This document shows, piece after piece, positions 124 to 59,344 of a stretch of 61,208 nt of DNA. Numbering within the stretch: the stretch's first letter is position 1; the number at the start of each line of letters is the position of its first letter. The notes under the pieces were generated by a model that saw only the letters and a program-made list of their open reading frames with translations, was not told the DNA's origin and made no database searches. A program made the translations under genes and the position numbers. This stretch comes from a virus. Where the stretch lies: IMG/VR virus record IMGVR_UViG_3300010330_000002, positions 1-61,208 of that record; one strand, 5' to 3'.

Positions 124-3100
124 CAAACACGGTTACAAAAGCAAGAGAAAGTAAGTCCAGATAAATTAATTGACGAAGCTCTTAAATCAGCGGAGCAACA
201 GCCTACTCCAGAGGCTGCTGGCGATACGGCACTGGCTGTATTGCCTCTAGTAATAACTTCGCTAAGCAAGTCTAAGATAGACGCTAACGACTATGCAGGT
301 TGGGCTAAACAAGCTGCTCTGGCCTATGAGAAAATAGCTAAAGCTATCCCTGATGAAGATACATTAGTCAAACAGACCCTTAGCGACACTGTCAAAGCTT
401 TTAAGCTTATAGCAAGTGGCAGAAAGCTAAAGGATGAGGAATTGCCTATTTTGTCCCATGCTAGTGCTGAGGTTGCAGAATGGCCCGATGATATACCAGG
501 CAAACAAGCCCTGCTAAAAGCTATTGATACAGCAATCAAGACTAATGAATTTCCTAAACCTGCTACTGCTGTTCCTGAGTCTAACTTACTTACTCTTGGG
601 TTTAAGGCTTCTGAGCAAAAGAAGCTTAGTGCCGAAGACAAGGAGAAGATTCTAAAGAACAAGATTAGCAGAAAAGATGTGGTTCTCAAAAGGGACGGTA
701 CAGTAGTTTATAAAAAGGAAAAAGCTGTTGGTGAGGAGTTAATCCCCAAAGAAACAACGCCTGCTCCCACTAAGGAAAAGAAGAAAGCGCTGCCTATAGA
801 AGAGGGAATGAAAAAGACTGTAGATGTCTATAAGAATTTGGGATACAGCGCTAAAGACATTTCATCTCTAGCTCCTGAAGAACTAGCTAGAATAAAGAAA
901 GAAAAGATTCCTCGGAAACAGGTAGATATTAAAGAAGGCAAAATTGTACCTAAATCAGTAGAGAAAGTTTCTGCTAAGGAAGTAAAACCTACAAAAGAGC
1001 TAATTCCTAAAGAGGAAAAGCCTCAACAGGCAATTGATATTACCAAATTATCTCAGACGCCTAAGTCTAAAATCGGTGATTTAGTAACCATTGATGAAAA
1101 TGCAAAAGAACTCGTATCTGTAAAAGGCAATAAAGTAACTGTTCATCCTGATTTCTTTAAGAAGAGGAAAGTAACTCGTGCAAAGCTTCTACAAGAAGCT
1201 ATTCAACAAAAACCAGAACAAGCTCCGCCTCAGAAACAAAAAGTACCTCCTCCTAAATTTACAGATACGCAAAAGCGGTCGCTTAAAAAACTGGGGTACA
1301 GCGATAAGCAAATAAAAAGAATGAAAGCGGAAGCCGCTAAGGAAATCTTGTCTAAGAAGATCAAAGCCGATTTTGTTAGTGTAAAACAAGATGGAACTAT
1401 AAAAGTATTTAAAGAGAGTAACGAAGTAGAAGCGGCTCTGAAAAAGAAAGCCAAGGTTCTCAAGAAGAAGCCTAAAGCCGTATCCTTGCCTGAATTTCCA
1501 AAGATGAAAAAAGGGAAAGAGTCCCCTGAATTAGCAGCTAAAGTGTATAAAATAAACTACGATGGCCAATGGCCCGAAGGCTCTATGATGGGCAAACTTA
1601 GTGGTGCATACTCCTTTACTTTGACTGGAAAGACTCATCCTGTTTTTGAGAAAAAGGGCGGGGCAACTACTATAGTTGTGCCTAAAGGAGAACTCCACAA
1701 ACTGCCTGAAATCATCAAACAAAAAGTTAAGGAATACGAAGCAGAGACGGGGCTGTCTGCTCCTGAGCTTATTCCAGGACATCCTGTTAAATCAGAGGCC
1801 AAGAATTTAGAACAAGCTCCCTCTAAAAAGATGAGGTTGTTTAAAGTAAATATGAAAGCCCTTAAACGAGTGAAAGCTTCTCCCACTATTGAGGATAAAA
1901 TAAGTGCTGCTTATTTTAGATTTCAACCTACATGGGAAAAGTTTACAGGGAAAGGGCGGTATTTAATGCCCAATCTTGGCAGGACCAAGCTCGTACAAAA
2001 AGAAGCCAAGGCCAGAGGCGTTCAAGATAAAGACTTGTTTAGGCTTGACTATTTGCTAAGCGCCAAAGAATGGTTAGCTGGAACCAATTTCAAAGAACAG
2101 ATTAAAAAAGGACTAATTACCGAAAAAGAAGCTCAAGCCAGAATTAGGTTTTTCGATAAGTTCGGTGAAAACGTTTTCAGATTTAAGTCCGAGCTAACGT
2201 CTGGTCTAACGGATATGTTTCGTAAATGGGCGGAAGGAGAGCCTTATCGGTTAGACCCTGACGAACCTGATTCTCCTCATATTAACAACATAATTAAAGA
2301 AGCACAGGGAACTCCCAAAGAGAAAATTGCTCCTCGTTATACTCTAAAGGAGTTGCTACATCCACCAAAAGACAAGGCAGAAGATATATCCAACCATCTG
2401 GCATATAGCTTAGCCTACACCATAATGGATCGCTACATCAGGTTGGCTAAGAGCATAGGAGAGTCTGCATTAGAAACTTTGTTGGATAACATGCTAACGT
2501 ATGGCCTGGTCCATTACGAAATGGCCCTTGAAGACGAAGATTCCTTTTTCTTCAACGAAATGGCCCCTACTGAACTGTCCGACGAACAAATTCAGCAGCT
2601 TCTAAAAAATACCACCTTTGACAAAATTGCGGACTACTTGGAGAATTTCCACTTCTTCTATCTAAAGAATAACATGGGGCTTCATAAGCTGGACACCATT
2701 CTAGGACTGTCCGCAGGGTTAATGAAATATACAATGGACCTAATAAGGTCTGAAGAATATTTTGAATCCAATGATGCGGGACGGCTAGTAAGGAATGAAG
2801 TAAAGAATGTAGTTTTTCCTGCTATTCAGCGAATTATCCAGGCTGCCGATAGGCTAATGGTAGTAAGTCGAGACATTAAACATATTGTCGGCATCAAAGG
2901 CATTATGAAAAAGCTGGAGCGCATGATAATAGCATATCAGAATAAGGAGATAGACAACCCTGACAAGTATATCCGCACGTTAGAGCCTTATTGGAGAAAA
3001 GTAATCCTTCCTTACCTGAGCCGTAACGAAAGAGCCTTAGCTGAAAAAATAGGCAGTGAAGAATTTTATGCTTCTAAGAAAGAAGGTCTGGCAGAAAAGA

Positions 3101-6966: not shown

Positions 6967-9320
6967 AACGCTAAAGTAGTTCCAACCTTTCCATCAGTTT
7001 CAATGGGGTATCCTACAGTGATACCCCAATTCTTTTTTATATATTCTTTGGTCCTGTTCTCGAAACAATCCTTTAAGATTTCTTGGCATTTCTCTACCAC
7101 GTCTTCTCTAGCTCGGTAATAATAGGCGTCGTGGATGAATAGATTAGTCAATTTGACTTTGGTTCTAAGTCTAGGCTGGCTCATTATTTCTTTGTAGAAC
7201 AGGCTTACCCCCAAACAAGCCAACTCCGAACTAAAGTTTTGGACTGGAGTATTGATAGCCTGCCTTTCTGCTTTGCTTCTCCAATAAATATCTTTGTCAT
7301 TGATCTTGGGCAAATGGCGTATCCTGCCCAATACACATCTAACGTGTCCTAATCTTGATGCTATTGCTACCATCTTTTTATGGTAAATAGGCAGGCGCCA
7401 GTACCCGTTGGGTACAGAGAAAAATTTCTCTCTATAAAGGGTAGCTTCTTTTTCAGTTAGAACTATGTCATAGTTTTTAAACGCATAATCTACTAAGGTT
7501 TTGGCTTGCATACCATAAAGCAATCCAAACACTACTGGTTTTGCTTTTTGCCTTTGTTCTTTAGTTACCTTGTCATAGGAAACTCCTGCTAATATGGATG
7601 CGGTGTAAGTATGAATATCTAATCCCTTATTCAAGGCCCCCAGAATGTTCTCGTCTCCTGCCAACCATCCTGCTATTCTTACTTCGCTCTGGGAAAGGTC
7701 TTGCGTGGCTATTACATACCCGTCTTCGGTAGTTATCAGTTCTAAGATATATTTAGCCAGGTCTCCATGAGTAGGGAATTGTTGTAGAGGCGGGTCAAGA
7801 ATAACCGTCCTTCCCGTAACAGTACCTGTAAGAAATATTTTAGGATAGATATAGCCATCTGGCTTTAGGTTTTTCCTAAGCAGAGGAATGTAAGTGCTTA
7901 GAATCTTTTTTATTCTATTATACCTAATAAGATCAGCAACCCAGGGATTGTCTTTAAACCGTTTCAGATGATGTTTGTCTGTAGAGGGTTGTTGAGTTTT
8001 CTCTGTAAAAGAGATTGGTTTTAAGCCCAAACCTTCTTTGGTAAACATATATTTTGCTATGACGTTGGGTGTGAGCTTTTCGGCGTCTGGTGGCAGGAGC
8101 TTTTCCTCTAGTTTGGATAGCTCGTCGTACAAGACATCCTCATTTTCATCGAGCTTTTTAAGATTTATAGGCCATCCTGTTTGTGAGATATTGGCAAACG
8201 CATTTTCTACAGGAATCATATAATAGTAATAATACCGTAGCAGTTTCTTATCTCGGCTAATCCGTGGAGCTAATTCTTTATAGACTTGGAGAGTAGCTTT
8301 TGCATCAATGGCAACGTATTTGAGTAACTTGGCTTTGCTTATTTCTGATAGGTTGCTACGGTTGTGCCCGACTATATCTTTTATGTTATACATATCAGTG
8401 TAGACATTGGCCAGATGCTCCAAATTATATGCTTCCATGTTTTCATCTACTACATGAGCCATAGTCATTACATCGTAAATCGGGCCTTTTACTTCACACT
8501 TCAAATTCTTTTTGCATATCCATTCATCAAATGGGCGGTTATGTACTACTTTAATTATCTTGGGGTCAGAAAGAATTTGCTTGATCTTGGGTTTAAGTTT
8601 ATTGTCTTTGATTCTAGCGGAATAAATCTTGTCTTTTCCTGCTACTGAAATGGCCAAGACTTCGCCGTTAGTATGAACTACGTCTAGGTTTTCTGTCTCC
8701 AGATCAAAGGCTACTACTTTGGAAGTTGGAGGGTCGATAGAGGAATATTCTATCTCTATCTCTGGAGTTTTACCGTGTTTTAGATATTCCACTGCTTCTT
8801 TGATGTCTGAGTAGAAAAGTTTTTCTGCCTCTCCCATTTTTGATACAGGGATATTAGGATAGCCAGCATGGGCCTGTCTTAGAATATATGAGGGATGGTA
8901 CGTTGCTATGTAAGTATACGGCCCTACGTTGTGTATTTCTCCTCGGAACTTGCCAATCTTTTTTCTGTTTAAGTGTTGAAGCAGGGACCATTCTCCCAGC
9001 AAAACAATAAGATCAGGTTTGAGTATTTCGAGGGCCTGCATTACATATTCTTTGCAATGTTTTACTGCCGATTCGATGTCTGCTCTAGAATCATTAGGCA
9101 GTTTGGGGCATCGCATCGAATTTAAAATAGAGTAATCCTTTCTACTTAGCCCAAAAAGTGAAAACGTTTTCATTAGCAATTGCCCACTTGGGCCGATGAA
9201 AGGCTTACCAGATTCTAATTCTTCCCTGCCAGGACATTCCCCTATTACAACAAGTTTAGGAGAATTCCTCTCGTACTTAACCTTCGGTCTTCCTTTGAAT
9301 GGACAGTCTTTACAGCTCAT
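6963..9320 (-). CDS. Uracil-DNA glycosylase / 3'-5' exonuclease / DNA polymerase A fusion
   Basis: A 785-residue replicative polymerase in three parts. Residues 1-170 match a family-4 uracil-DNA glycosylase: GECPG at 27-31, YHPS at 141-144, and Cys3, Cys6, Cys71 and Cys89 placed as in the 4Fe-4S cluster enzymes. Residues about 200-350 are a proofreading exonuclease with a full acidic set (Asp206, Glu208, Asp265, Asp339). Residues about 360-785 are a family A polymerase: motif A with Asp541, motif B (RQ..K...FG..YG) at 590-603, motif C at 730-732. Motif C reads HDA where most Pol I enzymes have HDE. The ATG overlaps the stop of the upstream gene (ATGA). It is last in the leftward replication operon. 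A glycosylase domain on a phage Pol A is, from memory, known in SPO1-like phages. Whether this one excises, or only senses, uracil cannot be told. Confidence 0.93.
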   Translation of the reverse strand: MSCKDCPFKGRPKVKYERNSPKLVVIGECPGREELESGKPFIGPSGQLLMKTFSLFGLSRKDYSILNSMRCPKLPNDSRADIESAVKHCKEYVMQALEILKPDLIVLLGEWSLLQHLNRKKIGKFRGEIHNVGPYTYIATYHPSYILRQAHAGYPNIPVSKMGEAEKLFYSDIKEAVEYLKHGKTPEIEIEYSSIDPPTSKVVAFDLETENLDVVHTNGEVLAISVAGKDKIYSARIKDNKLKPKIKQILSDPKIIKVVHNRPFDEWICKKNLKCEVKGPIYDVMTMAHVVDENMEAYNLEHLANVYTDMYNIKDIVGHNRSNLSEISKAKLLKYVAIDAKATLQVYKELAPRISRDKKLLRYYYYYMIPVENAFANISQTGWPINLKKLDENEDVLYDELSKLEEKLLPPDAEKLTPNVIAKYMFTKEGLGLKPISFTEKTQQPSTDKHHLKRFKDNPWVADLIRYNRIKKILSTYIPLLRKNLKPDGYIYPKIFLTGTVTGRTVILDPPLQQFPTHGDLAKYILELITTEDGYVIATQDLSQSEVRIAGWLAGDENILGALNKGLDIHTYTASILAGVSYDKVTKEQRQKAKPVVFGLLYGMQAKTLVDYAFKNYDIVLTEKEATLYREKFFSVPNGYWRLPIYHKKMVAIASRLGHVRCVLGRIRHLPKINDKDIYWRSKAERQAINTPVQNFSSELACLGVSLFYKEIMSQPRLRTKVKLTNLFIHDAYYYRAREDVVEKCQEILKDCFENRTKEYIKKNWGITVGYPIETDGKVGTTLAF
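9159..9172. promoter_or_regulatory. Dispersed palindrome TGAAAACGTTTTCA (in polymerase)
   Basis: Exact copy inside the glycosylase domain, encoding KTFS at residues 51-54, between the conserved GQLL and GL.R positions. The site is accommodated in a conserved fold without disrupting the frame. Confidence 0.8.
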
Positions 9321-15968: not shown

Positions 15969-17167
15969 TCGAACGGTAGCTCCGTTTCTACTTCTGAAAA
16001 ATCCATCCTCTCCCAATTCCAATTGATTTGGAATATGCAATTAGTCCCTTCTCTATTAGCAACCATCTCAACTGTTTTTACATTTGATCCCTCCTCTCCG
16101 GATATTCCTATAGCTACTGAACATAACTGAGATAATGCGTCTGTTAAGTGAATGTGTTCCAGTCCCCCAGACTTGGTTTTAGGCGCTTCTCTGTTGAACT
16201 GGAACGAGACTATCAAAGGGATGTTGAAGTTTAGCGCCATCAGTTTTAGCTCCTGGGCTATCTCAGAAGCTACTTCCCACTTTGATTTGTACTTACTCTG
16301 TACTTTTATGAGATACCCCCCGTCAATGAATACAAGATCTGGTTCGTGGTTGTCGATTAAAGCAAAAATATCATCAAATCCGTGTTGGAATTTCCCATCG
16401 ACATAAATTAGAGGAACAGGACTCTGCTTCAATTCTTCCAACGATCTCTCTGCAAAAGTGGAGATTTCGCCCTTCTTTATTGCTTCAAATTTGAGTTTAT
16501 TGGCAAGAGCTGTGATTCTCTTTGCCTGTTGCATTAATCCCATTTCCATAGAGATTAGCATTGCTTTATACCCTGCTTTAGCTGCTGCATATGCAGAGTA
16601 GACCATCATCATGCTCTTGCCTCTTTTGGGCCTTGCTAAAATTAAATCCAGGTCTCCAGGTTGATAACCATCACAAGCTTCGTCTAAACTTTTCCATCCA
16701 GTGGGGATTCCGAATGTCTGTCCTATCTTTGTTCTACGTTCTCGTACATACCCTAAAAACACGTCTATTAACTCATCAAAGGTGTAAACCCCATCGTCTG
16801 TTTTTTGGATGCTTCGGTAGTAATCTACAATGTTTTTCATAATATCGAGAGCTTTTTGCACATTGTGTTTGTGTAGTGCAGTCTCGATTTCTTGGGATGC
16901 TTGAAACAAATCTTCCTTAAATTTTCTCTCAATACACCGTTCGAGCAGTAGCTCGATTGGAGAATCAGGGATAAGTAAAGTATCTTCGTCTAAAAGTTCA
17001 GCTAAAGTTGGAAGGCTCGGTAGCTCCCCGTATTTTTTAATGTAGTTTTTGATTACATGGTACACCTCTTTTTCATCCTCAATGAAAACGTTTTCACTCA
17101 GTTTGTTGAATAATTTCAAGTCTTTATTGTTAACTACTGCTGTTAGTAATCTAATTCCTATCGACAT
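15965..17167 (-). CDS. DnaB-like replicative helicase
   Basis: 400 residues with an N-terminal helical domain (about 1-120) and a RecA-fold motor. IPTGWKSLDE precedes Walker A ARPKRGKS at 178-185. Later segments LVFIDGG (Walker B) and IVSFQFNR (motif H3/H4 region) match DnaB. The ATG overlaps the upstream stop as TAATG. A dispersed palindrome lies in the N-terminal domain, encoding ENVF. Confidence 0.9.
   Translation of the reverse strand: MSIGIRLLTAVVNNKDLKLFNKLSENVFIEDEKEVYHVIKNYIKKYGELPSLPTLAELLDEDTLLIPDSPIELLLERCIERKFKEDLFQASQEIETALHKHNVQKALDIMKNIVDYYRSIQKTDDGVYTFDELIDVFLGYVRERRTKIGQTFGIPTGWKSLDEACDGYQPGDLDLILARPKRGKSMMMVYSAYAAAKAGYKAMLISMEMGLMQQAKRITALANKLKFEAIKKGEISTFAERSLEELKQSPVPLIYVDGKFQHGFDDIFALIDNHEPDLVFIDGGYLIKVQSKYKSKWEVASEIAQELKLMALNFNIPLIVSFQFNREAPKTKSGGLEHIHLTDALSQLCSVAIGISGEEGSNVKTVEMVANREGTNCIFQINWNWERMDFSEVETELPFE
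17083..17096. promoter_or_regulatory. Dispersed palindrome TGAAAACGTTTTCA (in helicase)
   Basis: Exact copy 70-85 bases after the helicase start codon, encoding ENVF within the N-terminal domain. It lies within a leftward operon, far from any recognisable promoter. Confidence 0.8.
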
Positions 17168-18366: not shown

Positions 18367-18588
18367 CTAGCCTTCTTTAAGTTTATGTAGCAGATACCCT
18401 CTTGCTATTCCATATCCATAAAATTCTTTATCAGGACATTCTTCTAAATCGCTGATGTAATTTGGAGTAAATCCGAAGGTGCATATCCTCCAAGGAGTTC
18501 GGTAGAATATGCACCTTCTTTCTCCTAATTCACAGCTCTTTATCCACTCTTTGTGGTCTAAAGGATACCCTGGAATCAGTTCTTTCAT
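18367..18588 (-). CDS. Small Cys-containing hypothetical protein (73 aa)
   Basis: Not recognised. It has four spaced cysteines (SCELGERRC, RICTF, EECPD) that could bind metal, and several aromatics. The ATG overlaps the stop of the AAA+ ATPase gene, so it belongs to the same unit and may be its partner. Confidence 0.65.
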   Translation of the reverse strand: MKELIPGYPLDHKEWIKSCELGERRCIFYRTPWRICTFGFTPNYISDLEECPDKEFYGYGIARGYLLHKLKEG

Positions 18589-20117
18589 GTCAAAACCATC
18601 TTGGTGTTCTTGGTCTTGGACTTCTTGGGAATAAAATTAGCTACTCTTGCACGAGTAGTCCCCCACTGTCGCAACGCCTCGATTTCCTCTTTTCTACTGA
18701 TTGACAGAGGAACTGTTACATCACAAATTTCTAAAATATCTTCGGTAGTTACGTCACTTTCTTTATAAAATCCTTTAACTTTTGCTTGTTTCAATACATT
18801 CTCTATTTCCGCGCCTGTGTACCCCTCTGTTGCTGCTACGATCTTCTTTAGTGAAAATGTTTTCACATCCAGTTTGAGTTTATTCATATGAATTTTGATT
18901 ATCTCTTCCCGTTCTGTTTTCAATGGCAAATCTACAAACCAAAGTTCGTCTATCCTTCCTTTTCGTTCGAGTTCTGGAGGCAAAGCATGAACATTGTTTA
19001 CAGTGAAAGCAAAGAATACTGGGGCCTCGGTCTCCTGCATAAAGTACAGAAAAGAACCTATCACTCTTGCTGTGGTCCCTGCATCCGTAGAGTCTGACGA
19101 CCCCACTCCACTTAATGCTTTTTCTGCCTCGTCTATCATAACGATAGCAGGAGCCTGGGCCTCGATTTCTTTCAACACTCTTCTTGTATTTTCTTCTGTT
19201 TCCCCTAACCTAGAAGCAAATAGACTCCCTACATCTACTCTTAACAGTGGAACGTTGAATAGGTTAGCCAGAATCTTACAGCTTAGGGTCTTTCCTGTTC
19301 CTGGAACTCCTGCTAATAACATGCCTTTAGGGACAGGTACTTTCTTTGCGATAGCTTCCGCTCTGTTATTAAATACTTTGGCAGACATCATGGCCCACTC
19401 TCTAAAAGCATGTAATCCTCCTAAATCGTTGATAGTATCCTGCGGAGCTAGGTATTCTATCATCCCATTTTTCCTGACTTTCTCTGCTTTCAGTTTTTGT
19501 AAAGTATTCAAATTCAATTTACCTTTGCCTTGTACCAGAACTGTCCTAAATGCGAGGTCTGCTTCATATTTGGTTAACCCTGTAAGATATTCCGCAGCCT
19601 GTTTGCACTTTGATTTTGTTATCTTGATGTTATTGTTTTTGGTTATATGTTCGATCAATTCGAGCAGTTCTTCTTGAGTGGGCAGAGGAATATCTATCAA
19701 CCCACAATATTGGGAAATTTCCTCTGGCAAATTGAAACTGCCCTGCATTATACACGTAGCGAACGAATCTGAGTTGGCTATGTTTCTAAAGTAAGTGATC
19801 ATAAGAGGCAAATTAAACCTCTCGTCTATGAATCTGTGAAAATTGGTTAGCAGATAAATGTTTGGTTCGGTGTCTGATGCAATATGTCTCAAAATGTCTA
19901 AGTAGTTTGAATGGTTGCCGTTTACTCCTTCTATCGGGTCCCATACTTTTAGTTCATATCCTTTACTTTCTAAGTCTGGCGGCGCAGACTTTGCCTCTTT
20001 TAATTCTCTATTCAATTCCTTTACAGTATCCGTAACCAGGCTTATCACTCTTTCAGTTTCAATGGAATTGATTGCAATGATTTTATACCTGCTTTTTATC
20101 ATTGTTTTTAGCATCAT
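18585..20117 (-). CDS. Ycf46-like AAA+ ATPase
   Basis: 510 residues. The N-terminal 230 residues form an alpha/beta domain resembling a degenerate ATPase module (IYLLTNFHRF; a helical lid), as in Ycf46-type proteins. The AAA+ domain follows, with Walker A GVPGTGKT, Walker B IVMIDEAEKA, and a sensor and second-region segment (NNVHALPPELERKGRIDE) with the expected arginines. No protease or membrane domain is attached. The ATG at 20117 overlaps the upstream stop (ATGA). Its neighbours, a DUF2997-like protein and Cys-rich small proteins, recall the bacterial and cyanobacterial ycf46 neighbourhood. Substrate unknown; it presumably remodels a protein or protein-DNA complex. Confidence 0.82.
   Translation of the reverse strand: MMLKTMIKSRYKIIAINSIETERVISLVTDTVKELNRELKEAKSAPPDLESKGYELKVWDPIEGVNGNHSNYLDILRHIASDTEPNIYLLTNFHRFIDERFNLPLMITYFRNIANSDSFATCIMQGSFNLPEEISQYCGLIDIPLPTQEELLELIEHITKNNNIKITKSKCKQAAEYLTGLTKYEADLAFRTVLVQGKGKLNLNTLQKLKAEKVRKNGMIEYLAPQDTINDLGGLHAFREWAMMSAKVFNNRAEAIAKKVPVPKGMLLAGVPGTGKTLSCKILANLFNVPLLRVDVGSLFASRLGETEENTRRVLKEIEAQAPAIVMIDEAEKALSGVGSSDSTDAGTTARVIGSFLYFMQETEAPVFFAFTVNNVHALPPELERKGRIDELWFVDLPLKTEREEIIKIHMNKLKLDVKTFSLKKIVAATEGYTGAEIENVLKQAKVKGFYKESDVTTEDILEICDVTVPLSISRKEEIEALRQWGTTRARVANFIPKKSKTKNTKMVLT
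18852..18865. promoter_or_regulatory. Variant palindrome TGAAAATGTTTTCA (in AAA+ gene)
   Basis: One central base differs from the exact site (CG to TG). It encodes KTFS near the C-terminal part of the AAA+ ATPase. Flanks G and C extend the palindrome as in most exact copies. Confidence 0.65.
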
Positions 20118-20248
20118 CCACACCATCCTTTCTTACAATTTTTGCAGTTTTTGATGGGGCATTGATCACATTCATCAATCCACATTTCTATTTTAGTGCC
20201 CCTTACCACCAATACTACTTCTTTATGATCTTTACTGTCTCCTCGCAT
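20114..20248 (-). CDS. Cys-rich microprotein (about 44 aa)
   Basis: Its C-terminal third carries CDQC, then NCKNC and a final WC, six cysteines that could hold zinc or an iron-sulphur cluster. I take the ATG at 20248; the frame is open to 20323. The stop overlaps the AAA+ start, so translation is coupled. In ycf46-type loci a small ferredoxin-like gene is often near, which makes a redox or metal role plausible but unproven. Confidence 0.55.
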   Translation of the reverse strand: MRGDSKDHKEVVLVVRGTKIEMWIDECDQCPIKNCKNCKKGWCG

Positions 20249-20706: not shown

Positions 20707-20970
20707 TTAGCATTGTATTATCACCTCGTCTCTACTAACATTTTGGCGGACGCCTCCAGTTTGTTCTACCAAATAATCTGCAATTAAATCAGTAACATAA
20801 GGCACATCTATATTGTCATACTTTAACTTTTCGTTTTCTATTCTTATGGGCCTAAAAAGTAACTTTGAAGTGAAAACGTTTTCACTTGCTTCTTTGTAAC
20901 CCTTGCGCAGGGCCACTTGTTTAAACACATGCGGGTCTACTCTTAATTCTACTTCTACTATTCTGCTCAT
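20707..20970 (-). CDS. Hypothetical protein, possibly DUF1257-like (87 aa)
   Basis: It begins MSRIVEVELRVDPHVFKQVA and has a later helix DLIADYLVEQTGG. The opening strand, helix and GY motif vaguely recall DUF1257 (Ycf35), which sits beside ycf46 and DUF2997 elsewhere, but it is short and the match is weak. A dispersed palindrome encodes ENVFT in its first third. Confidence 0.6.
   Translation of the reverse strand: MSRIVEVELRVDPHVFKQVALRKGYKEASENVFTSKLLFRPIRIENEKLKYDNIDVPYVTDLIADYLVEQTGGVRQNVSRDEVIIQC
20871..20884. promoter_or_regulatory. Dispersed palindrome TGAAAACGTTTTCA
   Basis: Exact copy with G/C flanks, giving a 16-bp palindrome. It lies inside the 87-residue gene at 20707-20970. Confidence 0.8.
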
Positions 20971-21431: not shown

Positions 21432-22073
21432 CTACTCATCATCAAAATTTAATTCCTCTAACTCCTCATCGGACTCTGGCTCATCCTCTCCTATAGGCTC
21501 GTCTGCCAACAAGAACTCTTGGCAGATATATTCGAGGGCGGCTCCCGTGCTATCTGTCCCTACTGCCTCTTTTGCTTTGTCTATTGCCTGTTTTACAATC
21601 TCGTACTGATCCTCAATCAAGCTAAACGTTAGCTTAGTAATGGTAACCTCTTTTTTCGGGGCCAGGTTTTTCCTAAGTTGCTTGACTGTTTCTTTGACCT
21701 CGTTAAACGTCATGTTGGGTGCTTTTTTCAATAACCTGTCTATTTCTTTCTTGTCGTCCAGCAAGCTGATTTCCTTAAATTTGGTCCACGATACACTTAG
21801 AATTACATCTTTGGGAATATTATACTTTGCTATAGTCTCTCCCATTTGGGCGTACCACAAAGCAATCCGATACTCCAAATTCAACTCGGATTCTGCATAG
21901 TCTTTGAAGGTTTCGTATCCCCATTGGACGAACTGTTCCTTGCTTTTTACTTCGTGGAGCTTCAAATACAAATCATATCTGCTGTCATCAATACTCCGAA
22001 TGAGGTCTTTGATTTCCTCTCGGATACTAACCTTTGCCTTTTTCTCCATCTTTACGCTCTTTTTCTTTGCCAT
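21432..22073 (-). CDS. Putative DNA-binding protein with acidic tail (213 aa)
   Basis: A basic N terminus is followed by a helical core with LYLKLHEVKSKEQFVQWGY and FKDYAESELNL, then a WTKFKEIS segment and an acidic tail ending LEELNFDDE. The helical pattern resembles phage proteins sometimes labelled ParB/KorB-like, in which these helices form an HTH. No enzyme motif is present. With abundant dispersed palindromes in the genome, this is one of few encoded candidates to bind DNA specifically. Assignment is tentative. Confidence 0.6.
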   Translation of the reverse strand: MAKKKSVKMEKKAKVSIREEIKDLIRSIDDSRYDLYLKLHEVKSKEQFVQWGYETFKDYAESELNLEYRIALWYAQMGETIAKYNIPKDVILSVSWTKFKEISLLDDKKEIDRLLKKAPNMTFNEVKETVKQLRKNLAPKKEVTITKLTFSLIEDQYEIVKQAIDKAKEAVGTDSTGAALEYICQEFLLADEPIGEDEPESDEELEELNFDDE

Positions 22074-22683: not shown

Positions 22684-22712
22684 AATTTAAGATTTGAAAA
22701 TCCATTTGTCAA
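22684..22712 (-). promoter_or_regulatory. Leftward early promoter
   Basis: Minus-strand TTGACA (22712-22707), a 17-base spacer and TAAATT (22689-22684). It drives the operon from 22634 down to 18367. Its -35 box overlaps that of the rightward promoter at 22706. Confidence 0.72.
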
Positions 22713-22734
22713 GCAAAAATTTTTTGGATAGAAT
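22706..22734 (+). promoter_or_regulatory. Rightward promoter sharing the -35 box
   Basis: TTGTCA (22706-22711), a 17-base spacer and TAGAAT (22729-22734). Its -35 hexamer and the leftward one occupy the same seven bases, so one polymerase should exclude the other. It drives the terminase-small-subunit-like gene. Confidence 0.65.
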
Positions 22735-22761
22735 CAAATCATTGAAATCATGGAGGAAAAA

Positions 22762-23196
22762 ATGAAAACGTTTTCACTTTTGCCATCAACCGAACCAAAA
22801 CAATTTTCCGATGAAGAACTGGATGGGTTTGATCTTCTTCCTCAGTCCTGGAAGACATTCGCCATTGAATATTTGAAGCATCGACGACCTATTCGAGCAG
22901 CAAAAAACGCAGGATTCAAAGACCCCAAAAAAATGGCGAAACGCCTGCTCCATAACGAGAAAGTAAAGCGTTATATGGAATACGAACAGGAAAGGATGAG
23001 AGAGCTAGCTCGAATAGATCGGGAGTATATAGTCTTAAAACTTAAAGAGGTAGCAGAAAGTGGCGCAAAAACGAGCGACCGACTCCAAGCTTTGAATTTG
23101 CTTGCCAGAATCGAGGGCCTACTCCAAGACAAAGCTCCTCAGCAGCCTCCTGTCCTCCTCTTTAACTTCCAGGGCTTAAAGGTAGACGATAAATAA
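22762..23196 (+). CDS. Terminase small subunit-like protein
   Basis: 144 residues. The core SWKTFAIEYLKHRRPIRAAK, then AGFKDPKKMAKRLLHNEKVK, follows the pattern of small terminase HTH domains (aromatic, helix, repeated alanines, AG..., LL.N..V). A helical oligomerisation part and a Pro-rich tail follow. Start is ATG 22762 with GGAGG six bases before it, rather than the ATG at 22750. Its codons 1-5 (MKTFS) are the dispersed palindrome itself. It lies 12 kb from the large subunit, which lowers certainty. Confidence 0.68.
   Translation: MKTFSLLPSTEPKQFSDEELDGFDLLPQSWKTFAIEYLKHRRPIRAAKNAGFKDPKKMAKRLLHNEKVKRYMEYEQERMRELARIDREYIVLKLKEVAESGAKTSDRLQALNLLARIEGLLQDKAPQQPPVLLFNFQGLKVDDK
22763..22776. 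promoter_or_regulatory. Dispersed palindrome TGAAAACGTTTTCA over a start codon
   Basis: Exact copy starting at the second base of the ATG at 22762 and about 22 bases beyond the expected transcription start of the rightward promoter. A bound protein would block both elongation and ribosome entry. Confidence 0.8.
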
Positions 23197-26432: not shown

Positions 26433-26909
26433 ATGGAGGACAAACCAACAAAGGCTAGACTGTATCAATGCTTGCCGCATGGTAGCGGTATTAACGGGGA
26501 CTGGTACATTGAGGAAACTAGGCGGTCTTTTAGGTGTTATAACGGGTATCACTGCATGGACGAAAACGGCATGTACGACGGTTGGGCCGATTTTGTCCTT
26601 ATAGTACCTAAGTCTAGCCCGATAGAATTTAAGCTTCAGTTTAGAGGACGGCGGAGCCAATATTTGGCTAGGAAATATATGTTACGGGATTATTTAGAAG
26701 ACGAATTTCACTACTTTTTAGTGAGGGAGTTCCCACGAACTGTAGCAGATATTCCGCAAGATTTTGAATTGATTCCTAATAGCCAGGATATAAAGGCTAT
26801 GGGAATAGACCCTAACGAATGGCCTACAGTATTTACAAATGGAGAGAGAGTTTACGGTATCGAAAGTAACATTCCGTACCTTAATCTCCCAGTAACTAGA
26901 CTAAAATGA
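26433..26909 (+). CDS. Hypothetical protein (158 aa)
   Basis: Not recognised. Aromatic-rich, with a possible beta core (GWADFVLIVPKS) and a later helix LARKYMLRDYLEDEF. GGAAAGGAGG precedes the ATG. Its TGA stop codon is part of a dispersed palindrome. Confidence 0.7.
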   Translation: MEDKPTKARLYQCLPHGSGINGDWYIEETRRSFRCYNGYHCMDENGMYDGWADFVLIVPKSSPIEFKLQFRGRRSQYLARKYMLRDYLEDEFHYFLVREFPRTVADIPQDFELIPNSQDIKAMGIDPNEWPTVFTNGERVYGIESNIPYLNLPVTRLK

Positions 26910-26920
26910 AAACGTTTTCA
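26907..26920. promoter_or_regulatory. Dispersed palindrome TGAAAACGTTTTCA at a gene end
   Basis: Exact copy whose first three bases are the stop codon of the gene at 26433. It lies 20 bases before the ATG at 26941, just before its ribosome site. Confidence 0.8.
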
Positions 26921-28052: not shown

Positions 28053-28080
28053 GAGGGCGTGGGCGTTTTTTATCAAACCT

Positions 28081-28192: not shown

Positions 28193-28328
28193 TGAAAATA
28201 TTTTCAATCACGAGTGAAAACGTTTTCATTCTTAAGGTGAAAATATTTTCAGTTACGAAATGAAAGTGAAAATATTTTCAATTAGAAGTGGTTGTGCTCC
28301 CCGAAATTCGCTATTGAAAATGTTTTCA
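28193..28328. promoter_or_regulatory. Cluster of five palindromes
   Basis: TGAAAA-NN-TTTTCA occurs at 28193-28206 (TA centre), 28215-28228 (CG), 28238-28251 (TA), 28267-28280 (TA) and 28315-28328 (TG). Only one has the exact genome-wide sequence. Start-to-start spacing is 22, 23, 29 and 48 bases, the first two close to two helical turns. A degenerate sixth half-site follows near 28335 at the promoter. Confidence 0.85.
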
Positions 28329-31476: not shown

Positions 31477-32036
31477 TGGATTTATACAAAGAAAGAGCTG
31501 CACTTAAATCTCTTCTAACTAATTGTATATTTAGATTTGACGGAATTAAGCTGTCATCAGGGAAGACCAGCCGCTATTATGTAGATGTTAGGGCGGTAAC
31601 CACACTTCCTGAAGGTGCAAAGTTGGCAGCTAAAATTATGGGAAAAATGATTGGTCCTGTTGATGCTGTGGGCGGGCCAATACTTGGGGCAGTTCCTATT
31701 TTGGGAGCGCTCGCAGCTTTAGAAAACTATCGTACTTTTATAGTTAGAAAAGAACCTAAAAAACATGGGCTTGGTAAATGGATTGAAGGATGTCTTGGAA
31801 AGAAAGTAGCAATTATTGATGATGTTGCAACTACAGGGCGTTCTTTAATAAGGGCAATCCAAATAATTAATGACCTGTCTCCTTGGACAGAAATAACTAA
31901 AGTCGTAGTTCTTGTTGATCGTCAAGAAGGAGCGCAAAAGAAACTTGCTAAACATGGCTATCAGTTAATGAGTGTTTTCCAGATGGACGAGCTTTTAAAA
32001 GTGAAAACGTTTTCACTGGAGGAAAGGAGTAAATAA
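31476..32036 (+). CDS. pyrE: Orotate phosphoribosyltransferase
   Basis: 186 residues, usual length for the family. VAIIDDVATTGRSL is the PRPP-binding motif, RKEPKKHGLGKWIEG is the flexible catalytic loop, and SSGKTSRYYVDVR is the orotate-side segment. It converts orotate and PRPP to OMP in pyrimidine synthesis. Start ATG 31476 is preferred over 31473 for ribosome-site spacing. The last residues (VKTFSLEERSK) extend over a dispersed palindrome. An unusual metabolic gene for a phage. Confidence 0.85.
   Translation: MDLYKERAALKSLLTNCIFRFDGIKLSSGKTSRYYVDVRAVTTLPEGAKLAAKIMGKMIGPVDAVGGPILGAVPILGALAALENYRTFIVRKEPKKHGLGKWIEGCLGKKVAIIDDVATTGRSLIRAIQIINDLSPWTEITKVVVLVDRQEGAQKKLAKHGYQLMSVFQMDELLKVKTFSLEERSK
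32002..32015. promoter_or_regulatory. Dispersed palindrome TGAAAACGTTTTCA at the pyrE end
   Basis: Exact copy with G/C flanks inside the last codons of pyrE. It lies about 20 bases before the ATG at 32036, just upstream of its ribosome site. Confidence 0.8.
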
Positions 32037-32768: not shown

Positions 32769-32982
32769 AATGGAACGAGTGTTTTACCAGAATAATGATT
32801 GGGGTTATATAGATCGCTCTGATTTATTACTTCGATTAAAAATCGAGGTAGACAACCTGGTAGAAACTATCATTAGTGGTAATTCAAAGAGGCTTGTTAC
32901 GAATTGTTGTAATATAGCTTTGTATGCCATGTTATTAGCAAAGGAGGATTGGGATGATAGATTGGGAAGGAATGGCGATTAA
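32737..32982 (+). CDS. Hypothetical protein (81 aa)
   Basis: Helical, with LRLKIEVDNLVETI and NIALYAMLLAKE, distantly like all-alpha nucleotide hydrolases or helper proteins. TTG at 32737 has GGGGAGG five bases before it; ATG 32770 is an alternative start just after the upstream stop. Confidence 0.55.
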   Translation: MKTDILKFANEMERVFYQNNDWGYIDRSDLLLRLKIEVDNLVETIISGNSKRLVTNCCNIALYAMLLAKEDWDDRLGRNGD

Positions 32983-33783: not shown

Positions 33784-34005
33784 GTGAAAACGTTTTCAGA
33801 AACTAAAATGCCGTTTGGAAAATACAGGGGTATTTCTATAGCGTTAATAAATACAGGTTATTTGTCTTGGTTACTTGGCCAGGATTGGTTTTTGGAGGCT
33901 TATGACGATTTGGCTTCTAATATAGAAAAGGAATTAGTCTGGAGGGACCAATGGAATCTTCATTTTTATAAAGACAAAGTAAAACCTTATGGAGGAAACC
34001 AATGA
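33784..34005 (+). CDS. DUF3820-like protein (73 aa)
   Basis: MPFGKYRGISIALI and YLSWLL match the short DUF3820 domain, also found at the end of exonuclease X-type proteins. Start is GTG 33784, which lies in the dispersed palindrome, so the first residues read MKTFS. GAGGG precedes it. Function unknown. Confidence 0.72.
   Translation: MKTFSETKMPFGKYRGISIALINTGYLSWLLGQDWFLEAYDDLASNIEKELVWRDQWNLHFYKDKVKPYGGNQ
33785..33798. promoter_or_regulatory. Dispersed palindrome TGAAAACGTTTTCA over a GTG start
   Basis: Exact copy beginning at the second base of the GTG start codon at 33784. Same arrangement as at 22762, where the palindrome covers codons 1-5. Confidence 0.8.
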
Positions 34006-34791: not shown

Positions 34792-34794
34792 TTG

Positions 34795-36680: not shown

Positions 36681-39600
36681 ATGGTATCCTTTGTACCTGT
36701 TAAAGATATGTCTTCTGCGCTCCTTCCAGAAGAACCATTTACCGAAATGGTGGAGCTTAAAACCCAAGATCAATATGTATTGTCTAATTTGTCTAATTAT
36801 GTTTTAAGTAAATTTGAGGAAGCCAGAAGAGCCAAAGTTGGAATAGAAGAGAGATTAATAGACTGCCTACAACGCTTCAAGTCCGAGTATTCCCCCCAGA
36901 AATTACAGGAAATTAAATCCATAGACGCTCCTCCTATTTATATTCCTCTTACTTCTATAAAGGTGCGAGCCTTGACAGCTTGGCTAGTTGACGTTCTCTT
37001 TCAAACTCCTGACCTTCCTTATGACATAACTCCTACTCCTATTCCAGAATTACCTTTAGAAGTTCAACATGCTTTGGCACGAAGAGTATACGATACCATT
37101 ATGCCGATGGTGGAATTGTTGCCTTTTAACGAGCTGCAATCTATGGCCCTCGACGCTAAGAACTTGGCTGAAAAGGAAATTAAAATAGAAATAGATAAAT
37201 GGTCTAAAAAGTTGGCCGAAGGATTCAAGAAAAAATTAGACGATGTATTTATTGAAGGAGGACTTCCCGAAGCTCTTTCTGCGATGTGCGTAGACATTGC
37301 AATCTTTCCTACTGCTATAATTAAAGGTGGAATTCTGAGGAAAGAGAAAGGATATGTGAGGACTAAATATGGGTTGGAGCCAAAGAACAAAGTAATCTAT
37401 ACCTTTAATAGAGTATCTCCTTTTAACGCATATCCTGCTCCTTATTCCAGTGGCTTTGAAAATTATTTTATAGAAGTCGTGCCCCTCTTACCTAACGATC
37501 TTTATGATATGATCGGGATGCCAGGGTATAATTCTAAAATACTTACAGAGGTATTAGATAGGTATGAGCACGGATATAAATTTCACCATATGAACTATGG
37601 GTTGGATAAGGAAGCGCTGGAAGGCAATGAATTTGCCTCTTCTTCGGATTATGAATATATCGACGTGTTGGAATTTTGGGGGCCAGTCAAAGGCTCTTTA
37701 TTAAAAGATTTTGGTATAAGTGTTCCGAGCAGTAACGCTTACTATGAAGCTACGGTATGGGTAATTGAGGATTATGTAATCAAAGCAGTTTTGAATGAAA
37801 ATCCTTTGGGGCTTAAACCCTACGCAAAAGCTTCTTTTATAGATATTCCCGATTCTTTTTGGGGGCAGGCTCTGCCAGAAGTATTGGCTCCTATTCAAGA
37901 TTCTGTTAATGCTTTTGCCAGGTCTGTAGTAGTTAACGCTGCTATGTCTTCGGGGCCTATGGTAGAGCGCAACATAGATAGAGTCGATCCGAGTCAGCCT
38001 AAGATGATTATTCCCTGGCATATGTATGATGCTCATGACTCCGCTCTTAACTCCGCTCCTGCATACCGATTCTTTCAGCCTCAACTGACCGCAGATCGTT
38101 TGTCTACTGTTATGGCCTATTATCTAAAGTTGGCTGATGAGACTTGCGGCATTCCCAGCTATGCTCATGGTGATATTACAGTTGGCGGAGCAGGTCGAGC
38201 TTTGGCAGACTATGAATTAGTTCTAACTGAGACTGGAGCCAAACCTATTTCTTCTATCGAAGTGGGAGATAAGGTGGCAGGGACCGATGGCAAGTTTTAT
38301 GAAGTTCTGGGAGTTTACCCACAGAAAGGAAAACGTTTAATCTATCGAGTGCATTTTAGTAATGGATTTACAATTGATTGCGATGCAGATCATTTATGGA
38401 CTGTATCTAGTAAGCCTTCTAGGAAGAGTAGTTGGCAAACTCTGACTTTAGCCGAACTATTGAATAAAGGAATATTTAGACAAGATAACGGTCGTAAGAG
38501 TAAAGGTTTAAGACCAAAATGGGCAGTGTCCAAGATAAAACCAGTACAGTTTCCTAAACGTGAAGTGAAGATAGACCCTTATACTTTGGGTGTAATTTTA
38601 GGAGACGGAGACAATCGAGGCAGAATTCATCTAAATACAGAAGACAGCGAACATATAATTAGCCAGTTGGCCTATAGTGTAGGAAAGCCCAGTTATAATT
38701 CTGCTAAAACTGCTGTTTCTTATACAGTTAAAGGCGTAAAGAAGTGGTTGAGGTTCTATGGTTTGGGAGATACGACCGCACCAGATAAATTCATTCCAGA
38801 GGACTATCTGTTTAATACGGTAGACGTTCGATTGGCTTTGCTGCGTGGGCTTATGGACACAGATGGTTACACCAGCGAAGGGCGAGTATTTTTATCTTCT
38901 TCATCCAGAAAGCTGATAGAGCAAGTAAAGTTTCTTGTGATTTCTCTTGGTGGTTGGGCGGGAACTATAACAGAGTACCCTGAAGGAGAAGGCGAAATTA
39001 AAGGCCGTACAATTCATAGAAAGAAGAATTATAGGTTATATTTTTCTCTGAGTGAAAACGTTTTCACTTTGCCTCGAAAGAAGGAAGCAGTAAAAGGTGG
39101 AAAACGTCCTACATGGTTTGTTTATATCAGAGGGATAGAATTGCTGGGCGAAGGTACTACTACCTGTATAAAAGTTTCTAGCCCCGACCATTTGTTTTTG
39201 TGTGCCAATCTTATTCCTACGCATAACACAGCTACAGGGTTGTCAATGCTTACAAACAACGCCACACGTGGAATCAAGGCTGTATTGAGAAATATAGATA
39301 AAGGGATTATTGAGCCAATTGTGAAACGGCAATATTATACCTTAATAAAAGAGGCGAATGTTACAGACATTCCTGATCTTAAAATCAGAACCAAAGGCTC
39401 TATTTCCTTGTCTGAAAGAGAAATGGAAGCTACAAGGGCCTTGGAATTTCTGCGAGTGGTTAGCAATCCTCTTGACCAAAATCTGGTTCCTTTAGAAGGC
39501 AGGCGTTACTTGCTTACTTCTGCTGCCAAAGCTACTGGATTTGACCCTGATAGGATATTTGGCTACGAAGCTGACTTACAACAAATGCTTCGCCCTCTAA

Positions 39601-39725
39601 TTGAGGAAACGCAGGCTCAATTTGCTCAGCAACAAAGTCCTATAAATGTACCTCAGAATAAAGCGGTGCAGCTTGGTATGGGCGTTTCTAATTATGTAAA
39701 TGAAAACGGGAGGGTAGCTATATGA
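36681..39725 (+). CDS. Portal protein with a class 3 intein
   Basis: 1014 residues before splicing, 671 after. N-terminal helices, a beta segment with FNRVSPFNAYPAP, and a crown-like C terminus fit podovirus-type portals. The exteins join as GGAGR-TATGLSML, then NNATRGIK, the conserved portal signature. The intein lies at residues 507-849. AAGGAG precedes the ATG. The portal forms the DNA channel and docks terminase. Confidence 0.9.
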   Translation: MVSFVPVKDMSSALLPEEPFTEMVELKTQDQYVLSNLSNYVLSKFEEARRAKVGIEERLIDCLQRFKSEYSPQKLQEIKSIDAPPIYIPLTSIKVRALTAWLVDVLFQTPDLPYDITPTPIPELPLEVQHALARRVYDTIMPMVELLPFNELQSMALDAKNLAEKEIKIEIDKWSKKLAEGFKKKLDDVFIEGGLPEALSAMCVDIAIFPTAIIKGGILRKEKGYVRTKYGLEPKNKVIYTFNRVSPFNAYPAPYSSGFENYFIEVVPLLPNDLYDMIGMPGYNSKILTEVLDRYEHGYKFHHMNYGLDKEALEGNEFASSSDYEYIDVLEFWGPVKGSLLKDFGISVPSSNAYYEATVWVIEDYVIKAVLNENPLGLKPYAKASFIDIPDSFWGQALPEVLAPIQDSVNAFARSVVVNAAMSSGPMVERNIDRVDPSQPKMIIPWHMYDAHDSALNSAPAYRFFQPQLTADRLSTVMAYYLKLADETCGIPSYAHGDITVGGAGRALADYELVLTETGAKPISSIEVGDKVAGTDGKFYEVLGVYPQKGKRLIYRVHFSNGFTIDCDADHLWTVSSKPSRKSSWQTLTLAELLNKGIFRQDNGRKSKGLRPKWAVSKIKPVQFPKREVKIDPYTLGVILGDGDNRGRIHLNTEDSEHIISQLAYSVGKPSYNSAKTAVSYTVKGVKKWLRFYGLGDTTAPDKFIPEDYLFNTVDVRLALLRGLMDTDGYTSEGRVFLSSSSRKLIEQVKFLVISLGGWAGTITEYPEGEGEIKGRTIHRKKNYRLYFSLSENVFTLPRKKEAVKGGKRPTWFVYIRGIELLGEGTTTCIKVSSPDHLFLCANLIPTHNTATGLSMLTNNATRGIKAVLRNIDKGIIEPIVKRQYYTLIKEANVTDIPDLKIRTKGSISLSEREMEATRALEFLRVVSNPLDQNLVPLEGRRYLLTSAAKATGFDPDRIFGYEADLQQMLRPLIEETQAQFAQQQSPINVPQNKAVQLGMGVSNYVNENGRVAI
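38199..39227 (+). other. Class 3 intein with LAGLIDADG endonuclease in the portal (343 aa)
   Basis: Starts with Ala1 instead of Cys or Ser. Block B reads CDADHLW (Trp67), block F has CIKVSSPDHLFL (Cys323), and the end is PTHN before Thr+1. Trp, block-F Cys and Thr are the WCT set that defines class 3 inteins, in which the block-F Cys starts splicing. Two LAGLIDADG motifs (LGVILGDGD, LLRGLMDTDG) mark a homing endonuclease. A dispersed palindrome lies inside. Confidence 0.88.
39053..39066. promoter_or_regulatory. Dispersed palindrome TGAAAACGTTTTCA inside the portal intein
   Basis: Exact copy with G/C flanks, encoding ENVFT in the last part of the intein. It means the intein DNA itself has the genome-wide signal, either gained after insertion or present at arrival. 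Confidence 0.8.
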
Positions 39726-40855: not shown

Positions 40856-40869
40856 TGAAAACGTTTTCA
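40856..40869. promoter_or_regulatory. Dispersed palindrome TGAAAACGTTTTCA before a ribosome site
   Basis: Exact copy in the short gap after the 55-residue gene, followed by TTTTGGAGG and the ATG at 40888. The same palindrome-to-GGAGG layout recurs at 49771. Confidence 0.8.
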
Positions 40870-57465: not shown

Positions 57466-57466
57466 A

Positions 57467-59344
57467 ATGAGCTACGATGTAACTGAACTTATTTCAGAGA
57501 GACTAGACGCAATTAATAGCGGGATAAATTATACCCTAAATACTATTACAAATGTTATTAATGGGTTTCTATCTAGAGGTGTGTTGGAAATTGACCCTGC
57601 TTTTGTTGAAGATTTGCATCTTCATACTTATCCTATTCCTATTTTATCAAAGGGCGTAGGTGCGTCCGACATACAGCTAATTCCTACTGATTTAAAATTT
57701 CCTGATCATTCTGCTGAAGATTTTGATTTAAATACACTCATTTCTGAATTTGATTCTATACTTACAGAAATAGGCCAGAACATTGCTCCTCCTACAATTG
57801 ATTCTGTTTCTCAAAATCTGCATTCTATTTCTGCCCCACGTATTCCAGATAATTTAGATTCTATAGAATCTCCTTCTTTGGATACTGTTAAACTCCCTAC
57901 TTTACCAGTATTTGACAAAATTTCTGTTCCCTATCCAGAATCAGTTACTACGAATTTCACACCTTCGGATGTAACTTCGCTAACATTTGTTGAAACTCAA
58001 CATTTATTTGAAGAGTTTGACTCTATTTTACAAGAGGAATTGCAGTTTTCCACATACGTTCATAGTTTGATAAAAGATAGGCGCCTTAGAGTTGGAGAGT
58101 TGGTAGAGTTTTATGGCAGAATTTTAAACGCTCTTAAGGCTACTAATCCTCTTCAAAGAACTAGGGGAGTTATTGATGAAATCAATCAAATTGTAGATGA
58201 GGGTGAAGAGAAATTCATCAAACCTATTTATGATAGGTATACTACTTTTGTCTCTGAGGATATTAAAAATAAATTAGAAAATTTATATTCCCAAGCTAAA
58301 ACTTTGAGTGAAGGGCAATTACAAGAAAAATTTTATAGTGAAAACGTTTTCACTGATCGAGATAAAGAAGACGAAATAGAGGTTTTAAAGCTTCAACTTA
58401 AAGAAGATTTGGACAAACATGAAGCTGCTTATATGGACATTTGTATCCAACTCTGGAATCTTACTCTTTCTTATGTTCTTGTTTATGTAAATAAGTTATT
58501 GATAGAGTTTCAGCAAAGAATTGAATATGAGAGGGTTTTGGCAGAACTTCATGCTAACTTAGGCAAAGCAATTTTTCAGTATTATAATTTGTACGATTCT
58601 TTACTTCAGGCGGGAAATGTTCAGTTAGATAATTTTAAAGCTATTTTGAGCAAAGCTGATACAGAGTTGAATAAACTTCAATCTATATTAGAAAAAAACA
58701 ATGCTTATATCGAAGCATACGCCGCTCAGATTACTGGGCTTCAGACTTTAGTAGACAAGTACGATACTGATAGGAAAAATTACCAGGCACAACTTACTGA
58801 GAGGTCTTCAAGAGTAGACTTAGCTAAAACTGTGTATCAAAACAACCAGGCTAAGGTTGATTTGTATCAAAGAGCCGTAGGCTTGGTTAATAAGTTGTAC
58901 AGATTAAGACAAGAGAAAATAAGAGATATTCTCAATAGGACTAAAGCTAAAGTAGGTGCAGCTAAAGCCCAGCAGAGTTTAGATGTAGCAGGCTCTAAAA
59001 GCCTAGAAGAAATTTACAATATTTATGGGGATATATTAGAAACAGATGTGAGCAGATATAATGCCGAATATAACAATGTTCTCAAAGATAATTTAATGGG
59101 TTACAAAACTACAGTCCGTTTGAACGCAGAACGAGCTAATTTGTTGAAGCAAGCTTATTCAGTATTTCTTCAGAAAGTGATGCAGGAGAACCGCTATCTT
59201 CTAACAACTACTAGACTGGTCAATAGCACTGTAAATAAAATTGCTATGGAAGGAATCAGGCCCCTGTCTTCTATGTCGGCTGGGTTGCTGAGCGCTATTG
59301 ATGCTGTTGTCAATGGCTTATATGAATTTGTTGCAGAGGGATAA
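57467..59344 (+). CDS. Coiled-coil virion protein B (625 aa)
   Basis: Same architecture as protein A: disordered Pro/Ser-rich first 170 residues with SPSLDTVKLPTLPVFDK-type segments, then long helices (LQTLVDKYDTDRKNYQAQL, RLRQEKIRDILNRTKAK). Probably a duplicate of A. Contains a dispersed palindrome. Confidence 0.65.
   Translation: MSYDVTELISERLDAINSGINYTLNTITNVINGFLSRGVLEIDPAFVEDLHLHTYPIPILSKGVGASDIQLIPTDLKFPDHSAEDFDLNTLISEFDSILTEIGQNIAPPTIDSVSQNLHSISAPRIPDNLDSIESPSLDTVKLPTLPVFDKISVPYPESVTTNFTPSDVTSLTFVETQHLFEEFDSILQEELQFSTYVHSLIKDRRLRVGELVEFYGRILNALKATNPLQRTRGVIDEINQIVDEGEEKFIKPIYDRYTTFVSEDIKNKLENLYSQAKTLSEGQLQEKFYSENVFTDRDKEDEIEVLKLQLKEDLDKHEAAYMDICIQLWNLTLSYVLVYVNKLLIEFQQRIEYERVLAELHANLGKAIFQYYNLYDSLLQAGNVQLDNFKAILSKADTELNKLQSILEKNNAYIEAYAAQITGLQTLVDKYDTDRKNYQAQLTERSSRVDLAKTVYQNNQAKVDLYQRAVGLVNKLYRLRQEKIRDILNRTKAKVGAAKAQQSLDVAGSKSLEEIYNIYGDILETDVSRYNAEYNNVLKDNLMGYKTTVRLNAERANLLKQAYSVFLQKVMQENRYLLTTTRLVNSTVNKIAMEGIRPLSSMSAGLLSAIDAVVNGLYEFVAEG
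58339..58352. promoter_or_regulatory. Dispersed palindrome TGAAAACGTTTTCA (in coiled-coil gene)
   Basis: Exact copy with G/C flanks inside coiled-coil protein B, encoding ENVFT. It is the rightmost copy in the window; on the circle the next is at 2166. Confidence 0.8.

Follow-up and report, generated by a model that had tools for sequence, protein, structure and literature searches.

Genome-wide palindromes in phages travel with a candidate DNA-binding protein and a Cdc48-like ATPase

Introduction

Noc, a ParB paralogue of Firmicutes, acts at dispersed palindromes similar in length to the element described here. In the MatP/matS system, likewise, a short palindrome is repeated over a chromosomal domain and served by a small dedicated DNA-organising protein (PMC3330122). 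Among phages, the cluster O mycobacteriophages (Corndog, Dylan) carry more than 30 dispersed 17-bp dyads, mostly off promoters and about one third intragenic; the authors concluded that these sites serve something other than transcription initiation and left the binder and the function open (PMC4351075). Here we analyse the viral record IMGVR_UViG_3300010330_000002 (61,208 nucleotides, hereafter the window, meaning this whole stretch), a complete circular map with ~123 bp of overlap between its ends. It carries a dispersed 14-bp perfect palindrome, TGAAAACGTTTTCA, which accompanies two phage genes, one for a 213-aa candidate site-binding protein (the 21432 product) and one for a Cdc48-like AAA ATPase.

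The window resembles cluster O in combining an AAA ATPase homologue (58824-60524 in Dylan) with many dispersed dyads; Dylan has 34, recovered again in our dyad scan, and the window 18. Cluster O differs in its site, TGTTCGG-N3-CCGAACA, in a distribution that is denser at one genome end and not even, and in that a homologue of the 213-aa protein was not found in Dylan. Noc structures are among the fold matches of the 213-aa protein, with E-values that are not significant, but the window system is phage-encoded, shows no CTPase domain and has an AAA ATPase partner. Whereas matS occurs in a single region of the chromosome, with 23 sites over 800 kb (PMC3330122), the palindrome spans a whole phage genome at one site per 3 kb, and neither PDB nor Pfam matched the 213-aa protein to MatP. 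The stoperators of cluster A phages are also dispersed over the phage genome, with sites near a promoter, but they are asymmetric, oriented with transcription and bound by a different, monomeric repressor (PMC9283540), unlike the perfect palindromes of the window. CcpA cre sites and LacI operators share the palindromic form with a central CG; they are promoter sites of a host regulon, whereas the exact window sites are about half intragenic and the presence of sites follows a phage gene.

The palindrome is maintained at the DNA level

The first-pass annotation had listed 13 exact copies of the palindrome and counted five more that differ only in the two central bases. All exact copies were recovered at the listed positions, and the five variants were confirmed, with TA (three) or TG (two) centres (Table 1). 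It had also estimated that far less than one exact copy would be expected; Markov models of order 1-4 give 0.0005-0.0015, and the exact 14-mer was absent from shuffled sequences. The half-words are not unusual on their own (TGAAAA, 59 against ~45 expected; TTTTCA, 45 against ~35), and common flanks lengthen the 14-mer to an 18-bp palindrome, AGTGAAAACGTTTTCACT. As described in that annotation, sites lie in genes of both strands and in an intein, the latter being the copy in the portal gene; they also occupy intergenic DNA and occur in early and late regions alike. An RNA hairpin is an unlikely explanation, as the palindrome would give no room for a loop unless the stem were a weak 5 bp.

Relatives were gathered by scanning IMG/VR for the pattern and by searching with the portal protein; a nucleotide search of cultured phages with the window returned nothing close. 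Relative G001 (3300017593_000402, phage part from ~78.6 kb) is 75% identical to the window in nucleotides over 49 kb and holds 14 exact copies. All 11 alignable exact window sites are unchanged in G001, compared with 3.9% of all aligned 14-mers (p=3e-16), and because intragenic sites are among them, the DNA itself is under selection. G011 and G029, which are more distant (~65-67% identity), retain the polymerase-gene site as well as those at 49771 and 58339. Conservation of the encoded proteins was rejected as the cause, since the exact bases persist at intergenic 49771 and at 58339, where the proteins of G011 and G029 are just 30-33% identical to that of the window and the site codons are nonetheless kept. 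The portal-intein site is absent from both phages. Thus, selection holds the sites at the DNA level, yet single places gain or lose them; the annotation had asked whether related phages would show only neutral drift at syntenic positions, and they keep the sites there instead. An expectation far below the observed count, together with the conservation in G001, excludes a chance origin, and it is virtually certain that the sites are real and selected.

The small terminase genes of G011, G029, G018 and G027 carry a site 28-48 nt from the place of the window site. The five-site array of the window lies upstream of a promoter-like sequence (28334-28377), and the corresponding gap of G001 holds six sites. 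AT-rich direct repeats (CTCATATnAAA-like; 28080-28175), a possible origin or iteron region, adjoin this array. G001 positions 1-78592 contain no site and no DNA-level match to the window, while the remainder forms a single unit of 58.2 kb whose end is repeated; the contig looks joined from two phages.

Table 1 Palindromic sites and associated genes of the window
Feature	Position	Strand	Context and state in relatives
Exact site	2166..2179		inside 2309-aa gene 37-6966; 14/14 bases kept in G001, flank 82%
Exact site	9159..9172		inside family A DNA polymerase gene; same place in G001, G011, G029
Exact site	17083..17096		inside DnaB-like helicase gene; kept in G001, and in G029 with TG centre
AAA ATPase	18585..20126	-	513 aa, phrog_8638; C-terminal half matches Cdc48/p97
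Site, TG centre	18852..18865		inside AAA ATPase gene; CG centre in G001, same TG/CA centre in G011
Exact site	20871..20884		inside gene 20707-20970; kept in G001
Candidate site-binding protein	21432..22073	-	213 aa, phrog_17202, no Pfam family
Exact site	22763..22776		small terminase start codon, beside divergent junction of two operons; kept in G001
Exact site	26907..26920		between co-directional genes, upstream of ribosome-binding site
Five-site array	28193..28328		28193 TA, 28215 CG (exact), 28238 TA, 28267 TA, 28315 TG; noncoding gap
Exact site	32002..32015		3' end of phosphoribosyltransferase gene, upstream of next gene's ribosome-binding site; gene not found in relatives
Exact site	33785..33798		at gene start; gene not found in G001
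Exact site	39053..39066		portal-gene intein, at ~residue 791
Exact site	40856..40869		upstream of ribosome-binding site
Exact site	49771..49784		gene junction upstream of ribosome-binding site; same junction in G001, G011, G029
Exact site	58339..58352		inside gene 57467-59344; same codons in G001, G011, G029

Two genes accompany the sites

In the first comparison, the genes for the 213-aa protein and the ATPase were present in multi-site contigs and both were missing from the portal relative G004, which has zero sites. Across complete genomes, they are the sole genes among 46 window genes that occur in 20/20 site-bearing and 0/8 site-less phages; the remaining genes of the replication module reach 19/20 at most or are also present in site-less controls. 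Both sit in the replication operon and, the helicase aside, the Cdc48-like protein is the only co-conserved ATPase among the window genes scanned. Other window genes (polymerase, primase, RecA-like and others) were rejected as the binder because they occur in site-less phages or are missing from G018. The annotation had named the 21432 product for binding tests, and the phylogenetic profile of the 46 genes now singles it out as the candidate binder.

A search of cultured phages with both proteins led to phages of Vibrio, Rhizobium, Rhodobacter, Stenotrophomonas, Aeromonas, Agrobacterium, Pseudomonas and Mycobacterium, and a blind dyad scan showed that most of those genomes contain a single dominant palindrome in dispersed copies. 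Its layout is mostly TG(A/C)AA-N4-TT(G/T)CA, in up to 47 copies: TGCAAC-N2-GTTGCA in Rhizobium phage L338C (47), TTGCAAA-N2-TTTGCAA in Agrobacterium phage JP1 (33), TGCAA-N4-TTGCA in Pseudomonas phage SM1 (30), TGCAAT-N2-ATTGCA in Stenotrophomonas phage DLP5 (27), TGCAATCGATTGCA in RcMenchie (19), TTGCAAC-N2-GTTGCAA in HJ05 (15) and GCAATTAATTGC types in the Vibrio phages, with a further 45 copies of a dyad in RHph_I4. The best dyad reaches a log10P of -30 to -158 in most carriers, against ~-4 to -6 in random sequences, and Vibrio phages with weak exact dyads have 11-28 matches to TTGCAATNNATTGCAA (at most two mismatches), compared with 0.1-0.6 in random sequence. Sites accompany the phage gene over at least seven cultured host genera.

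Contigs first found by the 213-aa protein alone carry dispersed dyads (G022, 26 of the TGCAATCGATTGCA type; G023, 13 of ATTAAATCGATTTAAT). Of further contigs located by the 14-mer, G029 has both genes and 25 sites, and G013, G014 and G032 are without the 213-aa protein. JP1, SM1 and RcMenchie were found via the ATPase only, yet have 33, 30 and 24 dyads, respectively, along with a divergent member of the 213-aa family; the family profile detects members in these three and in Tunturi_4. Both genes are also present in G040, with eight copies of TGAAA-N4-TTTCA, whereas six polymerase or portal relatives without the two genes have 0-1 matches to TGMAANNNNTTKCA. The window's structural genes are missing from G022, DLP5 and L338C, where sites are nonetheless present, and a search of bacterial genomes with the 213-aa family gave no relative. 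The 213-aa protein is very probably the site binder, and the ATPase likely acts in the same system.

Rhizobium phage RHph_TM3_14A (MN988472.1), a control with neither gene, has 15 copies of GTTACC-N6-GGTAAC (26 of TTACC-N6-GGTAA); we therefore claim only the TGMAA-type layout for the 213-aa family. This dyad may mark a comparable system that uses a binder of its own. G015 (L145) and contigs L254, L259 and L260 have a few copies of a second dyad, GGGACA-N3-TGTCCC, or of related forms (GGGAC/GTCCC), and Puniceispirillum phage HMO-2011 has five copies of AGTCCG-N4-CGGACT.

Sites are spaced more evenly than expected

Most carriers have one site per 2.3-6 kb. Variation in the gaps between sites falls below that of random placement matched for the coding and noncoding share (combined z=-7.3 over 13 lineages), and spacing is significantly even in DLP5, G022, JP1, SM1, L338C and G012 taken singly (p=0.0003-0.004).

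Fold and predicted specificity of the 213-aa protein

The 213-aa protein has no Pfam match, and a PDB sequence search with its family profile returned chance-level matches only. Its structural model (mean predicted local distance difference test score, pLDDT, 80.5) begins with a short disordered N-terminal stretch, followed by a helical domain; it is confident over residues ~20-130 and 150-190 and exceeds 90 over ~20-130. Fold likeness is suggestive, and only suggestive, of a ParB/Noc-like DNA-binding domain. In the C-terminal part, a strand-like stretch and two helices suggest, from sequence, a ribbon-helix-helix-like dimer unit, although the modelled monomer lacks a strand.

Helix 68-84 contains residue 70 and is, judging by the fold likeness, the predicted recognition helix; the identity of this residue shifts together with base 3 of the site. 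Among 17 phages with TGCAA-type sites, 14 have Lys there and the other three have Arg, Thr or Gln (one each), while all 11 phages with TGAAA-type sites have Ile, Asn, Met or Val. When the family tree is computed with the columns near residue 70 left out, the two types fall on separate sides, apart from two phages. G040 lies within the TGCAA side but has a TGAAA-type site, with Val for Lys at residue 70; G022, on the TGAAA side, has a TGCAA-type site and Arg at this residue.

Other features of the window

The intein of the portal gene (36681-39725) has a LAGLIDADG domain (residues 715-785) and a Hint trace (512-558), and the large terminase gene (34792-36669) is apparently interrupted by a small intein-like stretch. 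Two related small proteins, encoded at 32954-33313 and 34002-34340, combine a helix-turn-helix with an NrdR-like zinc ribbon. Among the small early genes, 25095-25661 encodes a protein with a tyrosine-phosphatase-like motif, CVGGHGRTG.

Discussion

Selection on the sites, their association with two genes, the matched change of residue and site, and the spacing were computed directly. The account we favour, to which as a whole we give an even chance, is that the dyads are bound by the phage's own dimeric protein, the 21432 product, which organises the phage chromosome. This protein would bind each 14-bp dyad via a predicted ParB/Noc-like helix-turn-helix domain and would dimerise via its C-terminal part. 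The bound sites would mark and organise the whole chromosome, whether by bridging, compacting, segregating or anchoring it, in replicating genomes or extrachromosomal prophages. The Cdc48-like ATPase may remodel or strip the bound protein, for example ahead of packaging. A role for the whole chromosome seems likeliest because the sites are genome-wide, evener than chance and mostly off promoters, and whole-chromosome handling is preferred over gene-by-gene control because of the even spacing, the presence of sites in early, late and intein DNA, and their palindromic form. The probability that the output is chromosome organisation or maintenance, in the broad sense, falls slightly short of even.

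Several observations weigh against this account. The replication module is largely co-inherited, so that the next-best genes reach 19/20 in the phylogenetic profile, and many carriers were found via the two genes; the profile is thus not a blind sample, the blind parts being the site-first contigs and the dyad scans. The pairing of genes and sites is also imperfect: the ATPase is missing from Tunturiibacter phage Tunturi_4 (PP885687.1), which encodes a member of the 213-aa family and carries seven copies of another dyad, CTGCACA-N1-TGTGCAG; G035 has a distant 213-aa homologue with neither ATPase nor dyads, and in the cluster O phages, which have the ATPase and dyads, the 213-aa protein was not found. 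Foldseek matches to PDB structures include ParB, Noc and Spo0J-parS with probabilities of at most 0.89, but with E-values of 0.7-6; a ParB/Srx CTPase domain or ParB family match was not found in the 213-aa protein by family scan and model, nor a ParA family match among those window genes that were scanned. The residue-70 pattern amounts to two independent switches, a number that cannot give significance, and residue 20 varies in a similar way. The window's own spacing is not significantly even (p=0.13). Sites are enriched ~2-8 fold in noncoding DNA, significantly in most carriers under simple gene models chosen from open reading frames, and several carriers favour spots just upstream of ribosome-binding sites, a preference that may merely reflect where noncoding space is located. 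Both of these preferences, like the promoter-side array at 28193-28328, fit a regulator as well.

The main rival is stoperator-like silencing, in which the 21432 product is a repressor that blocks early promoters and roadblocks elongation at dispersed sites, perhaps keeping an extrachromosomal prophage quiet, and the ATPase removes it for lytic growth. A silencer or autoregulatory role gains some credit because the array lies beside promoter-like 28334-28377 and one site marks the divergent junction at 22712-22776; the noncoding enrichment and the sites upstream of ribosome-binding sites would also suit it, and DLP5 and VHS1, which carry the binder gene, have extrachromosomal lysogens (PMC5834331, PMC7326821, PMC3148565). 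However, spacing is even across late as well as early regions, many sites are intragenic, and the palindromes have no orientation, unlike known stoperators, an argument also made for cluster O (PMC4351075). An integrase or repressor family was not found among the window genes scanned, and lysogens were not obtained from cluster O phages (PMC4351075). We consider silencing unlikely, while giving it serious weight. Partition of an extrachromosomal prophage, with dispersed centromeres, a ParB-like binder and the AAA ATPase in place of ParA, overlaps in part with the account we favour. Dispersed centromere sites are known from the plasmid prophage N15, and the ParB/Noc-like fold matches point the same way, as do the phagemid DLP5 (PMC5834331) and the extrachromosomal VHS1 (PMC3148565). 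This reading is doubtful, since no ParA-like gene was seen among the genes scanned, classical AAA ATPases are protein remodelers not known as partition motors, and the cluster O phages lack lysogens (PMC4351075).

A little more doubtful still is the idea that the sites are marks used in replication, recombination or packaging, where the bound protein would recruit the replisome or terminase. The location of both genes in the replication operon is consistent with it, and six phages have a site at or near the start of the small terminase gene, but sites are spread genome-wide and not placed at one origin or pac site, and the structural module varies while sites remain, as in G022, DLP5 and L338C. 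Operators for a host LacI/CcpA-type regulator, which the annotation had raised, are very improbable. The 14-mer does fit the cre consensus, and G013, G014 and G032 carry it beside cre-like variants; these contigs, however, lack the binder gene, and their few sites are packed into 1-7 kb by TGAAAGCGTTTACA-type variants, whereas sites of carriers are genome-wide and partly intragenic or between operon genes. We reject a host regulator for this phage because the sites track the phage gene across host genera and, over unrelated hosts, the palindrome varies in step with the phage protein. What survives of the options in the annotation is dispersed stoperator-like or partition/condensation sites for one dedicated protein.

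Some ten years ago, dispersed phage dyads were noted in a single cluster, where they stayed unexplained; they are now linked to one protein family and one ATPase. The link spans many hosts and supplies a candidate binder, a predicted specificity residue and cultured model phages, namely Rhizobium L338C, Pseudomonas SM1, Agrobacterium JP1 and Stenotrophomonas DLP5, with 47, 30, 33 and 31 sites, respectively. We tentatively suggest a widespread viral chromosome-organising machine in phages of many bacterial groups, composed of a binder, co-evolving evenly placed sites and a Cdc48-like loader or stripper, in which cluster O would use a different binder and site. If the organising role is true, phages would possess dedicated machinery for handling their genomes, of a similar kind to MatP/matS or Noc. 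The occurrence of the same two uncharacterised genes with a genome-wide palindrome in many unrelated phages points to an unrecognised viral chromosome-handling system.

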